From contig NC_134030.1 in the NCBI RefSeq assembly GCF_964204645.1, positions 6,074,278-6,138,277 on the forward strand: a stretch of 64,000 nucleotides of DNA, given 5' to 3'. The DNA comes from Tubulanus polymorphus. Taxonomy: Eukaryota; Nemertea; Palaeonemertea; Tubulaniformes; Tubulanidae. The position numbers were made by a program, and so were the translations under genes. Of the stretch, positions 21,826 to 41,900 are shown in pieces (positions within the stretch are counted from its first letter, which is position 1; every line of letters starts with the position of its first letter). Below the pieces are notes generated by a model. It ran no database searches, was not told where the DNA came from, and saw nothing but the letters and a program-made list of their open reading frames with translations.

Positions 21826-24800
21826 ATGTCAAAGAACGCAGTCGGAATCGATTTGGGAACAACCTACTCCTGCGTTGGTGTATTCCAACACGGCAAAGTA
21901 GAAATCATCGCCAACGATCAGGGAAACAGAACCACGCCAAGCTATGTTGCATTTACAGACTCAGAACGTCTTATTGGTGACGCCGCTAAAAATCAGGTGG
22001 CCATGAACCCTTCGAACACTGTGTTTGGTGAGTTGCGTGTCCGTGAATGGTATTATAAGAATCAATTGTTCAGGATGGCCACGTGGATTTTGTAGAAAAG
22101 CCAAAAAGCAAGTGAAATTTGTTCGAGAACTTATCCGAATTTGTCCTTTTCCCAATAAGGTGACGAGTTCACCCCTTCAAGTAAGCCTAATCACAAATGC
22201 ACTAGTTTAGAAAATAATAACGTTACAAGTTTGTAGTAAATCCTTATATATAAACACACTCAAATACCCTTCAAATTTGAAAATTGTGGTCCAGTTAGGA
22301 ACCCCTCGATGCATAGGTAAGCCGTTATTTGTGAATACATTCTTATCGATATTTCATCCGTTTTTCAGATGCTAAACGTCTTATCGGACGAAAGTTCGAC
22401 GAGCCCGCCGTGCAAACTGACAAACAGACTTGGCCGTTCGAGGTCATTAACGAAGCCGGAAAACCAAAAATTGAAGTCATGTACAAGGGCGAAACGAAAA
22501 CGTTCAACCCCGAAGAGATCTCATCGATGGTATTGAATAAAATGAGGGAAACCGCTGAAGCCTACCTCGGAAAGAAAGTCACAGATGCCGTCGTCACAGT
22601 ACCCGCCTACTTCAACGATTCACAGCGACAAGCGACCAAAGATGCCGGAACAATTTCCGGTATGAACGTCCTTCGTATCATCAACGAGCCGACCGCTGCC
22701 GCCATTGCTTACGGTCTGGACAAAAAGGTACGTCCTTGAAATCGGTGGACACTTGTGAGGGTCTATTATTGTAGCTCACGAGATAAATTGACGATGATGA
22801 AGCATATTCCATATTCGCGGTTTCCACCAGAAAACTGAGAAATCGGTTTGAAGATGGTCAACATTACGCCTTCCTTGGATGTCTGAGTCAATTAAAAATT
22901 CTACGCAATAGACAAATGTTGTGGATGCCACAAGGAACCTCATGATAATGAGTTTCTTAGATGTCTTATGATTCATTTAGGAAGTTTTTTGTCAAAGTAT
23001 TCGGAGCATTGTGATTCCCTGATTTGTAAGATCATCGATAAGTAATCTAATTGAAATTTTGTAGGTTGGAGCTGAACGAAATGTGTTGATCTTCGATCTC
23101 GGAGGTGGTACATTCGATGTGTCGATCTTGACGATCGAAGACGGTATTTTCGAAGTGAAATCCACGGCCGGTGACACTCATTTGGGAGGCGAAGATTTCG
23201 ACAATCGTCTGGTGAAATTCTTCATCGCCGAGTTCAAGCGTAAATTCAAGAAGGACATCTCGGCGAACAAACGAGCGATCCGACGTCTGAGAACGGCCTG
23301 TGAACGAGCCAAGCGTACGCTGTCCAGCAGCTCGCAAGCAAACATCGAAATCGATTCGCTGTTCGAGGGTCACGATTTCTACACGAGCGTCACCCGCGCG
23401 CGTTTCGAGGAGTTGTGCGGCGACTTGTTCCGCGGCACATTGGAACCCGTTCAGAAGGCGTTGACCGACACGAAATACGACAAGTCGCAGATCCACGACA
23501 TCGTCATGGTCGGCGGTTCCACTCGTATCCCCAAGATCCGAAATCTTCTGAAGGATTTCTTCGGCGGTAAAGAATTGAACATGAGCATCAACCCCGATGA
23601 GGCTGTTGCGTACGGTGCCGGTACGTGTTTATTACTAATTCATGTATCAGATTCATTTTCAGGTCGTTAAGTTATGATGAAGCATATTCCATATTCGCGG
23701 TTTCCACCAGAAAACTGAGAAATCAGTTTGAAGATGGTCAACATTACGCCTTCCTTGGATGTCTGAACATTCTGCGATATGACATCTTTCAGTCTCTGGT
23801 GTGCTGTATACAACAAATCTGCATAATCATTGTTTCTCTATTTTTCAGCCGTACAGGCCGCTATTCTCTCCGGAGATAAATCCGAAGAGGTGCAAGATCT
23901 GTTACTCTTGGACGTAACGCCGCTGTCTTTGGGTATTGAGACCGCCGGTGGTGTGATGACTGCCTTGATCAAGCGTAATACGACCATTCCGACTAAAGCT
24001 ACGAATGTTTTCACTACGTACAGTGACAATCAACCTGGTGTACTCATCCAGGTCAGTTTGATTTTCAGTTCTTATAAGCGATTGTGATTTCGCGATGATG
24101 AAGCATATTCCATATTCGCGGTTTCCACCAGAAAACTGAGAAATCGGTTTGAAGATGGTCAACATTACGCCTTCCTTGGATGTCTGAGCTAAACAACCTC
24201 TATCGACTGGAAATCTGAATAATGTAAAAACCTTTAAAAAATTTATTTATTTTGATTGGCCTTTTCAGATTAATGAAGGTGAACGTGCTCTAACAAAGGA
24301 TAACAACCTGTTGGGAAAATTCGAATTATCGGGAATCCCACCGGCACCGCGAGGTGTTCCCCAGATCGAGGTCACATTCGATATCGATGCTAACGGTATT
24401 TTGAATGTGTCCGCCATCGAGAAGAGTACCGGTAAAGAGAACAAGATCACGATCACCAACGACAAAGGTAAAAACATTTCAAAAGGATTTATGATGATTA
24501 GTCGAGTTGTTGAACTGGTTTCCAATTTACATATGATCAATGATGATATAAGTTATCCCTGTCAGACAAAGTCAATGGTGACAACTTCTGTTCTGAGACA
24601 TAAGTCTATTAACTGCAGATAATAATTAATAAGTTAATTAACTGCAGAAGATTCTACCTTAATTCGCCCTTCATGATACAGTGGAACCTGTTAAGTTTAA
24701 GTACCCATAAATCAGCAATACCTCGTTATAGTCGGTATCGATTAACTGATATTTTAGGATAAAATTATTTTTAATTAAGGACGAATGGTTATTGTAACGG

Positions 24801-25708
24801 GTTCCACTGCATGGGTCACTATAAACTTAACTTGAAGAAGCTTAATATGTGCTTTCAATGATGATACAAGTTATCCCTGTCAGACAAAAATGTCTGTGGT
24901 GACAACTTTTTAAGCTGACGCACGATTATTTTACTACCTAACTTACCTGTTGCCTCGTAAGTGAGCTGGATGTTTATGCTTATGATTATATATCTATAAT
25001 AGGTCGCCTGTCAAAGGAAGAAATTGAACGCATGGTGCAGGAAGCCGAAAAATACAAGAACGACGACGCCAGTCAGCGTGAACGAATCCAGTCGAAAAAC
25101 AATCTGGAGAGCTACGCATATTCGATGAAACAATCCGTAGAGGACGAGAAAGTGAAGGATAAGATCAGCGAAGAGGACAGAAAGAAGGTGTTGGATAAAT
25201 GCAAGGAAACAATCGAATGGTTGGATCATAACCAGGTTAGTAATGGGTGAAATATAATTCTGGGATGGTCAATAATTTGTTAAAGATCTGGGGTTAAACT
25301 GGTTGGGTGCGTGGTTTCAATGATGAAGCATTTTCCATATTCGCGGTTTCCACCAGAAAACTGAGAAATCGGTTTGAAGATGGTCAACACTACGCCTTCC
25401 TTGGATGTCTGAGCTAACCACGATAATCTAAAATCTTTTTCCTGTGTTCATATGGTTGTTTAGATTTGTAAATGGATGTTTGTATTTATCATTCGTAGAC
25501 TGCTGAAAAGGAAGAGTTTGATCACCAACAGAAAGAACTCGAAGGCATCTGCTTGCCAGTGATGACCAAGCTGTACCAACAGGGTGGTGGCGCGCCAGGT
25601 GCTGGAGGAATGCCCGGCGGTATGCCAGGTGCCGGAGGAATGCCCGGAGCTGGAGGTGCCCCACCATCGGGTAACGCTGGTGGACCAACTATCGAAGAGG
25701 TCGATTAA
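21826..25708 (+). CDS. HSPA8: Cytosolic heat-shock cognate 70 kDa chaperone (HSC70/HSPA8 type)
   Basis: Seven coding exons: 21826-22027, 22369-22727, 23065-23620, 23849-24051, 24269-24467, 25003-25235 and 25499-25708. A non-coding exon ends at 20950. The product is 653 aa (human HSPA8 is 646). It is an ATP-driven chaperone of cytosol and nucleus. Signatures are [13 protein letters not shown] (about 7-19), [14 protein letters not shown] (about 195-208), [12 protein letters not shown] (about 333-344), the linker [15 protein letters not shown], then the substrate-binding and lid region. The C-terminus has GGMP-type repeats and ends IEEVD, the binding site for TPR co-chaperones, which marks the cytosolic rather than ER or mitochondrial paralogue. 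GGMP repeats suit a cognate gene, while the heat-shock element allows induction. Introns 3-7 host six C/D snoRNA copies. AATAAA at 26114-26119 fits its 3' end. The symbol denotes the family; one-to-one orthology is not proven. Confidence 0.96.
22786..22893 (+). ncRNA. SNORD14: U14 box C/D snoRNA, copy 1 (HSC70 intron 3)
   Basis: Box C ATGATGA at 22794-22800 and box D CTGA at 22883-22886, closed by a perfect 7-bp terminal stem (AATTGAC / GTCAATT). The 5' element TTCGCGGTTTC complements the 18S helix carrying GAAACCGCGAA (U14 domain A). The element GCCTTCCTTGGATGT abuts box D and complements 18S ACATCCAAGGAAGGC (domain B). The fifth base above box D pairs with the C methylated by U14 (C462 in human, C414 in yeast). 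Vertebrate HSPA8 also hosts U14. Confidence 0.93.
23671..23768 (+). ncRNA. SNORD14: U14 box C/D snoRNA, copy 2 (HSC70 intron 4)
   Basis: Box C at 23674-23680 and box D at 23763-23766. Both rRNA-complementary elements match copy 1; one internal base differs (AATCAGTTTG instead of AATCGGTTTG). The terminal stem is weaker than in the other copies, which may affect processing. Confidence 0.9.
24089..24193 (+). ncRNA. SNORD14: U14 box C/D snoRNA, copy 3 (HSC70 intron 5)
   Basis: Box C at 24095-24101 and box D at 24184-24187. The sequence between the boxes matches copy 1. Flanks TTTCGC / GCTAAA form an imperfect terminal stem. Confidence 0.92.
24532..24604 (+). ncRNA. Second-family box C/D snoRNA, copy A (HSC70 intron 6)
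   Basis: Box C ATGATGA at 24540-24546 and box D CTGA at 24593-24596. An internal AGTTATCCCTGT (24551-24562) is followed by a CAGA D'-like box and a GGTGACA C'-like box. The 12-nt element complements ACAGGGATAACT, a highly conserved 28S stretch near the peptidyl-transferase centre. It is not U14. SNORD60/snR48 guides act in this rRNA region, but I cannot confirm the family. Confidence 0.7.
24679..24809. mobile_element. 131-bp pogo/Tigger-like MITE between the two intron-6 snoRNAs
   Basis: Terminal inverted repeats CAGTGGAACCTGTTA and TAACGGGTTCCACTG flank AT-rich filler with a CCTCGTTATA motif. A TA dinucleotide precedes the left end and CA follows the right end, a possible degraded TA duplication. 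It is non-coding and lies between the two second-family snoRNA copies. Confidence 0.7.
24849..24923 (+). ncRNA. Second-family box C/D snoRNA, copy B (HSC70 intron 6)
   Basis: Box C at 24858-24864, guide AGTTATCCCTGT at 24869-24880, CAGA, a GGTGACA C'-like box, and box D CTGA at 24915-24918. GTGC/GCAC form a short terminal stem. The guide and box regions match copy A exactly, while the spacer before box D differs. The first guide therefore appears to be under constraint. Confidence 0.7.
25312..25420 (+). ncRNA. SNORD14: U14 box C/D snoRNA, copy 4 (HSC70 intron 7)
   Basis: Box C at 25320-25326 and box D at 25409-25412, with a TGGTT / AACCA terminal stem. It differs from copy 1 at two non-guide positions (GCATTTTCC, CAACACTACG). 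Both 18S-complementary elements are intact. Confidence 0.92.
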
Positions 25709-38900: not shown

Positions 38901-41900
38901 AGAATCCCACAATTGTTGAATGACTAAAAAGTTTATTCAAAATACCAGAAATATTGATGGTGGTTGCTACCACCCTTCTTCAGTCTAATGAGATGTTTTA
39001 GACCAAAGAAGGGTGGTAGCAACTGCCAGATTGGTATCCTCGTTATGGCATCGAGACTAGTTTAAAACCCATGCCATGGTAGACTGAGACGCAACATAGA
39101 AATACTTACGAGCACATAATCCCACGTACAGGCGAATTTCGATCGCTCGAGTTCCCAATCGGTGAAATTCAACAGCACCACCTTACCGGGCGTAGTTTGA
39201 ATTCTCCACGTGCAGACGAGATACGGTTCGTATAAACCATCCCCATCTGAGTCGATTGATTGGAACGATCCGGACGTGCTGTTCAATAACCCGCCACAAC
39301 CTTGATGGATGCCTAAATTTATTTGAACCAAAGACGTCGTTTATCGGTCACTTCTGCTACAACAAATTTTATTTGCCCTGCGTGTGACACTTACCGTATG
39401 TGGTTGTATATCTAGCGAGAAAACCTTCGCCGACTATGCTATTGTCAGACGCGAATTTGACCAACATGCTGCGTCCGGTAGTCTGTATCGGTGTCGGTAT
39501 TTCCTTGCCGCAGTATTTTCCCAGTAACGGAGCGTCGGTCGAATTGCCGTCGAAGACAACCATGTAATCGAACCTACAGCTCGAGTGAGTTTCCAAACCG
39601 AATTTCTTAAACCTGTTCGAGATATACGAATGCGATACAAATATCACTCACAGTCTACGAGTTCTTGATACGCACTTATTCGTGGGGAATACAATGAAAG
39701 TAAAATCCATCAATTCAGGCGTGGATCCAGGATTCTTTCCGGGAGGGGGTTCATAAAGAAAGTTAATGTTAAACTGCAGACTAGAAATCTCTGATAGGGG
39801 GCCTTTACGGCATATTGTTTGTCCAAACATAAGATGATATAGTACCGATTATCTTGGAGTACATTCCTTCAAGAAAATGATTAAAAGAGTTTTGGTAGCT
39901 CAGCAGGGGGTCACGACCCCTGAAACCCCTCTGTGGATCCGCACCTGCAATTAACCCTTTCAGTGCTGACTTATCAATACCCAAAAGAGCTGGAGATAAT
40001 TTGACAATTTTTGAAAATTCCACCCCAGTGTGTTGAATAATGGGCATACTGCTTTAGTGCGTCTAGACGATGGTGCGGTGTATTGTTAGTTACTAATATT
40101 TCACTACAACCATCATCAGGTGGAATGATGGCCGATCGGAAGATAAATCTGTAGTTTTGTTTCAGGGAAATGAACAACTTACGATAATTTAACAACTCTG
40201 TCCTCGGCAACAGTTATCGACCAGGTACAGTTAGCGTTGTTGTGATATACTGTTGGATGTTGCGGAGTTCGAATTATTCCTGAAGGTTCCGTAAAAACAC
40301 CTCCGCATTCTACAACGAAATCGAGAATCTTTCTAACAACCATAATGTTTCTGTAGTCATGAACAGAACAGGATCACTACAGAAGTTTGAATAAGAACAG
40401 TGTCTAGATTGGATCACACAGTCAACTGGTCACTTACCGGATGTGATAAACTTTGCCTTGAATCCGGCAGCTGTTAAATGAGGATCTGATTTGAAACGTA
40501 CAGACATCACGCCTAGTGAACTTACTGGTTGTGGAGCTGTTTTACCGCAGAACTGACCGAGCAGACGCCCAGTTCCAGTCTGATTCGAAGCGTAAACTGA
40601 TACCGAATCATAAATACAGCCTATGAATATATATATATAACACATCTTAGTTATAACACCAACTGAAGGAGCAAATATGTTAAGCGCTGTAAGCAGCCTG
40701 GCTTGATTTGGCCCTATCGAAAGATCTAAGGCATGATAGCTAAAAATGTGTCTTGTGACTAGCGCCATAAATTCCTGAACTCTGATAGACTTAAGTAGAC
40801 CTTACCTGATTTTCGATCACTTGTGTTGGTCGCTAATGGTATTTCTATTGAAAAAGGTTCCTCTTCAAATCCCAGCAGAATGAATCTCTCCGGATCAGAG
40901 ATAATTGTATAATTACAATCTAAATTGTCAGCATAGTTATCCGGATACCCGGGCGATGTTATTATACCGGTTTCCGTTGTGAAAGTGGCGCCACATCCTA
41001 GAATCAGCAAACAGATATTGTATCATCAATCTTAGAAAAATCTGTCGTTGGATCACTGTGAAACATAACTTTGTATAATATATCACTATGAATGGTTATT
41101 GGTATGGATTGTAATAGCTTATGTACAGGATCAAACTTCACCAAAAATTAACTTAAGCCACCCCATTGTTGGCGGTCACTGCAATGATTTTTAACAACCA
41201 TGTCATCAATCCTAAATGTTTGTAATCAATCCTAAACGGTTTTCATAGGGCAAAAATATATCTTCAAAATAAAATATTTTTATTACCGACTGTCCAGTTT
41301 GCCACAAAACCTCGCCCTATGGTGCTATCATCCGATCTGAATTTAACCCGAAGACGATTAGACGTTGACTGCATCGGTAATGGTGCTTCACTACCACAAA
41401 AATGACCTAACGTTGTCCACACCTCTCCTTCTTTCATCTTTTTATAATCAATAACCTGAAATGTATGTTTTGTTGATCGTAATAGAAATGAGCGAAGCCT
41501 AAGGTCAGTTGCAACTTAAGACCATTCTCAAGTTCCTCTAATCAGCTTAACAACTCAAAACGGTTTAAAGATTCAATGAAGTCCTGAGCTGAAACCTTCC
41601 GACGCCAGAGAAGCGGTAAAATGAATACTCACCTCGACATAATCATTTTCGCATCGATCATGAGCTTGCATATCTAACGGTGGTAAAAACGATAGAGTAA
41701 TATGGTATCCTGGCTGAACATTGATATCCCATAAACATTCCGTATTGTGCGGATAATAGTTAGGGTGTCCAGGACTGGTAAAGCGACCAGTTTGTCCGTG
41801 ATATAATCCACCACAGCCTCCGCTGATGAACGAATATCTTAACGAAAATCCTCGCCTCACTAAACTACCGTCTGTGTGAAATTCTAGTCGTAATTCATTA

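Follow-up and report, generated by a model that had tools for sequence, protein, structure and literature searches.

The window analysed here, a 64-kb stretch of DNA, contains an HSC70 gene whose exons, joined across GT...AG introns, encode an intact protein of 653 amino acids with the C-terminal end GGPTIEEVD. Two box C/D units, read directly from the sequence, lie together in one of its introns, where the earlier note had placed them, and four copies of U14 occupy four other introns of the same gene (Table 1). The intron with the two units interrupts codon 507, after coding-sequence nucleotide 1519. It does belong to HSC70, as the earlier note had it, but it can be called intron 6 only if a putative intron in the 5'-UTR is counted. 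The introns carrying U14 appear to match the U14 intron positions of vertebrates and are presumably homologous to them; the intron with the two units appears to occupy what we take to be the position of vertebrate HSC70 intron 7. Elsewhere in the assembly, an HSP70 paralogue with 72% identity (G000:C5:22027143-22029005) runs uninterrupted over residues 3-623 and is probably an intron-poor inducible HSP70.

Table 1. Positions of the HSC70 gene and of its intronic snoRNAs in the window
Feature	Position	Strand	Basis
HSC70 host gene	21826..25708	+	coding exons joined
HSC70 coding exons	21826-22027, 22369-22727, 23065-23620, 23849-24051, 24269-24467, 25003-25235, 25499-25708	+	exon joining
HSC70 intron (GT...AG) hosting both snR38 units	24468..25002	+	exon joining, giving intact HSC70
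U14 (SNORD14)	22789..22890	+	intron 22728-23064; RF00016 56.9 bits
U14 (SNORD14)	23669..23770	+	intron 23621-23848; RF00016 51.7 bits
U14 (SNORD14)	24090..24191	+	intron 24052-24268; RF00016 52.5 bits
U14 (SNORD14)	25315..25416	+	intron 25236-25498; RF00016 49.6 bits
snR38/snoR38 box C/D snoRNA, copy 1	24531..24603	+	RF00213 43.4 bits, full model 1-91; boxes
Copy 1, box C	24540-24546		ATGATGA
Copy 1, guide	24551-24562		AGTTATCCCTGT
Copy 1, box D'	24563-24566		CAGA
Copy 1, C'-like box	24577-24583		GGTGACA
Copy 1, box D	24593-24596		CTGA
snR38/snoR38 box C/D snoRNA, copy 2	24851..24925	+	RF00213 39.6 bits, full model 1-91; boxes
Copy 2, box C	24858-24864		
Copy 2, guide	24869-24880		
Copy 2, box D'	24881-24884		
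Copy 2, box C'	24898-24904		
Copy 2, box D	24915-24918		

At the Rfam gathering thresholds no match is reported anywhere in the window. The matches described here were obtained at relaxed thresholds, the gathering cut-off being 45 bits for RF00213 and 64 bits for RF00016. All six snoRNAs of the gene score below these values, and routine Rfam annotation would therefore miss them. In a genome-wide search with RF00016, the four HSC70 copies of U14 nevertheless rank first. Another weak match in the window, to the mir-5681 family at 38958-39028, is found on both strands (E 0.02 and 0.075), far under the family cut-off, and is consistent with a palindromic hairpin.

Anatomy and family of the two units

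Boxes C, D', C' and D follow one another in this order in both copies, and each copy has a short terminal stem. The 12-nt guide begins four bases after box C, and the D' box, in the variant form CAGA, is immediately 3' of the guide. The elements listed in the earlier note (box C, a shared 12-nt element followed by CAGA, a C'-like GGTGACA and box D) are thus all present in both copies. Its estimate of about 75 nt agrees with the covariance-model matches, which span 73 nt in copy 1 and 75 nt in copy 2 with the terminal stems included; from box C to box D the copies measure 57 nt (24540-24596) and 61 nt (24858-24918). Thermodynamic folding, with z = 0.77 and -1.56, tells little about the two units, as was to be expected of box C/D RNAs.

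The model RF00213 (snoR38/snR38) matches both units over all of its 91 positions, with scores just under the cut-off. When the entire 267.8-Mb assembly is searched with this model, the two units rank first and second (E 7.5e-4 and 5.9e-3), so that the covariance search proposed in the earlier note as a check returns full-length matches that are the top two of the genome. The third-ranked candidate (G000:C7:10355429; 27.4 bits, E 3.7) was considered as a further snR38 copy and, being devoid of the guide AGTTATCCCTGT, was judged to be noise. The description of the units as different from U14 holds, as both match RF00213 and not RF00016 and lack the 18S-complementary domains of U14. The earlier note gave the guide family no name and thereby treated it as potentially new; this reading has to be amended, because the full-length match of both units to RF00213, a family with a known target, rules out a new guide family.

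RF00213 takes in yeast snR38, human snR38A and Arabidopsis snoR38Y, and its guide is common to plants, animals and fungi (PMC3511168). Yeast snR38, human snR38A/B/C, plant snoR38Y and Dictyostelium CD6 have in common box C, a guide AGUUAUCCCUGU adjoining D', boxes C' and D, a terminal stem and the 28S site, which is also that of the present units. The latter differ from the family in having CAGA instead of CUGA as D', in being shorter than the 91-position model, and in being hosted by HSC70, two in one intron. The U14 copies are likewise intronic box C/D snoRNAs of this host gene; they differ from the two units in their guide and target (18S rRNA) and in their greater length (93 nt from C to D).

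These observations make it very probable that both units are the conserved guide snoRNA snR38, a proposal that, taken as a whole, includes their processing, the methylation of the target and an old duplication. The anatomy of the units, the family match and the complementarity to the target are observed directly; expression, processing and methylation are expected by analogy with the family. The points against this assignment are the two scores below 45 bits, the variant D', the pairing, which at 12 bp falls a little short of what the family consensus guide would permit, the 406-nt distance of copy 1 from the 3' splice site, and the fact that the pairing was observed with a rearranged 28S fragment. 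A fortuitous similarity or an unrelated repeat of the intron could also give such low scores. Such an origin is, however, exceedingly improbable: the assembly contains precisely two instances of the 17-mer AAGTTATCCCTGTCAGA, both in this intron and 318 nt apart (the reversed-pattern control gives 0), the two units lead the RF00213 matches of the genome by orders of magnitude, and the box C/D architecture, although defined after the fact, is present nowhere else in the window. The shorter pattern GTTATCCCTGTCNGA, which would reveal further copies even with a CTGA D' box, matches only these two units in the assembly outside runs of N and withheld stretches, and the viral and prokaryote contigs, scanned for eukaryotic strays of the pattern, give zero matches. 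Chance was rejected on the counts of the 17-mer and of GTTATCCCTGTCNGA together with the genome-wide RF00213 ranking.

The predicted 28S rRNA target

All 12 nucleotides of the guide pair with a 340-nt 28S segment from this genome, at about -19 kcal/mol; elsewhere in the segment, no position allows more than 9 of 12 pairs. The complementarity to 28S ACAGGGATAACT noted earlier therefore exists in this species, as 12 bp with a 28S fragment present in the assembly. An exact ACAGGGATAACTGGCTTGT occurs just once in the assembly, within this fragment, which is rearranged (G000:C2:28953084). A full rDNA unit was not found in the assembly. As the fragment is the sole 28S match to the target region, the true rDNA array appears to be missing or withheld from the searched assembly. 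The short rearranged fragment (L006 about 1200-1560; G000:C2:28952995-28953133 and flanks) adjoins a GPCR-like open frame.

Counting five nucleotides from D' leads to the second G of the GGG in ACAGGGAUAACU, i.e. ACAG[G]GAUAACU, as the predicted methylation site. Yeast snR38 directs the formation of Gm2815 (PMC8307265, PMC8817022), which is located in the peptidyl-transferase centre (PMC8307265). In the literature, human snR38A/B/C are assigned to Gm4362, plant snoR38Y to Gm2805 and Dictyostelium CD6 to Gm3148, all of them the same site; the identity of the yeast, human and Dictyostelium positions is given in PMC8817022. It would follow from the shared guide that the G in ACAGGGAUAACU is the equivalent of yeast 25S Gm2815 and human 28S Gm4362. 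A second guide, located before box D, was also considered. The sequence there differs between the copies and pairs weakly with 28S (-7.4 and -5.7 kcal/mol, a partial test confined to the 28S fragment), which disfavours it.

The proposed pathway can be described as follows. The HSC70 pre-mRNA would be transcribed and spliced, and the intron lariat debranched and then trimmed, while snoRNP proteins bound to the C/D kink-turn would shield an RNA of about 70 nt. The guide before D' would then pair with 28S ACAGGGAUAACU, and the snoRNP would 2'-O-methylate the G paired five nucleotides upstream of D'.

Proposed duplication and processing within one intron

Both copies of snR38 would stem from an old local duplication. 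As the earlier note had observed, the guide is identical and the spacers have diverged: the columns of boxes and guide agree in 34 of 34 positions, compared with 13 differences in the 30 remaining columns (Fisher p = 9e-6, a test with some circularity, the boxes having been picked out by motif). The flanks of the two copies align no better than shuffled sequences. An old duplication followed by selection on function fits the identical boxes and guide, the diverged spacers and the unalignable flanks. The copies also share a near-identical 5' block of 34 nt, the retention of which could alternatively be due to gene conversion.

Between the copies lies a transposon-like inverted repeat, CAGTGGAACC...GGTTCCACTG (24676-24812). 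The surrounding 151 nt are matched nowhere else in the assembly; the repeat, if a mobile element at all, would thus have to be old or solitary. Just 3' of copy 1, two near-identical 20-nt direct repeats (ATAAGT..ATTAACTGCAGA; 24600-24648) are found 29 nt apart.

The distance from box D to the 3' splice site is 84 nt for copy 2 and 406 nt for copy 1; for the U14 copies it is 82, 81, 86 and 178 nt, the last in intron 22728-23064. Work from the Steitz laboratory reportedly indicates that a spacing of some 70-80 nt promotes the splicing-coupled assembly of C/D snoRNPs. By analogy with this preference, the snoRNA is more likely to come mainly from copy 2; processing of copy 1 may be less efficient and may rely on the terminal stem of that copy. 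Taken further, the spacing of copy 2, similar to that of the three U14 copies at 81-86 nt, might mean that copy 2 alone works and that copy 1, far from the splice site, is a poorly processed or decaying duplicate. This is somewhat unlikely, as copy 1 retains every box, the entire guide and a short terminal stem, its RF00213 score is the higher of the two, and the U14 of intron 22728-23064 is also distant.

One snoRNA per intron is the predominant rule in animals, and pairs of snoRNAs in one intron can give rise to sno-lncRNAs (PMC11028025). An intronic pair of C/D snoRNAs being a known sno-lncRNA arrangement (PMC11028025), the two snoRNAs here might cap the intervening piece of the intron and produce a sno-lncRNA of about 379 nt, besides or instead of the single snoRNAs. 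Only the arrangement, known from sequence, is matched here; the joined transcript is hypothetical. The intervening sequence shows no sign of conserved function, is mostly single-copy in the assembly and contains the transposon-like inverted repeat, and such an outcome is quite unlikely. Rated lower still is a molecule of this length derived from the doubled snR38 (24540-24918) with identical guides at both ends. Were it to exist, the chaperone gene would be tied to both a guide for methylation of the peptidyl-transferase centre and a stable long RNA.

HSC70 as a likely host of snR38

The residence of U14 in HSC70/HSPA8 has been reported for mouse, rat, human and chicken (PMC7277114; PMC2653536). 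In chicken, HSPA8 introns 5, 6 and 8 are listed for U14, and snR38 is found in intron 2 of ENSGALG00000001886, an entry separate from HSPA8 (PMC2653536). No earlier report of snR38 in an HSC70 host, or of its doubling in one intron, was found in the open-licence papers searched, in which U14 is the one snoRNA recorded from HSC70/HSPA8. As snR38 snoRNAs the two units are ordinary, the family being very old and well known; the possible novelty lies in the HSC70 host and in the presence of two copies in one intron.

The HSC70 gene of an invertebrate is likely to be a further host of snR38. Its intron represents a case of two snoRNAs together, as opposed to the one-per-intron arrangement predominant in animals. 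One chaperone gene would thus serve both ribosomal subunits, with U14 as the guide for 18S and snR38 as that for 28S rRNA, and both guides would depend on the transcription of HSC70.
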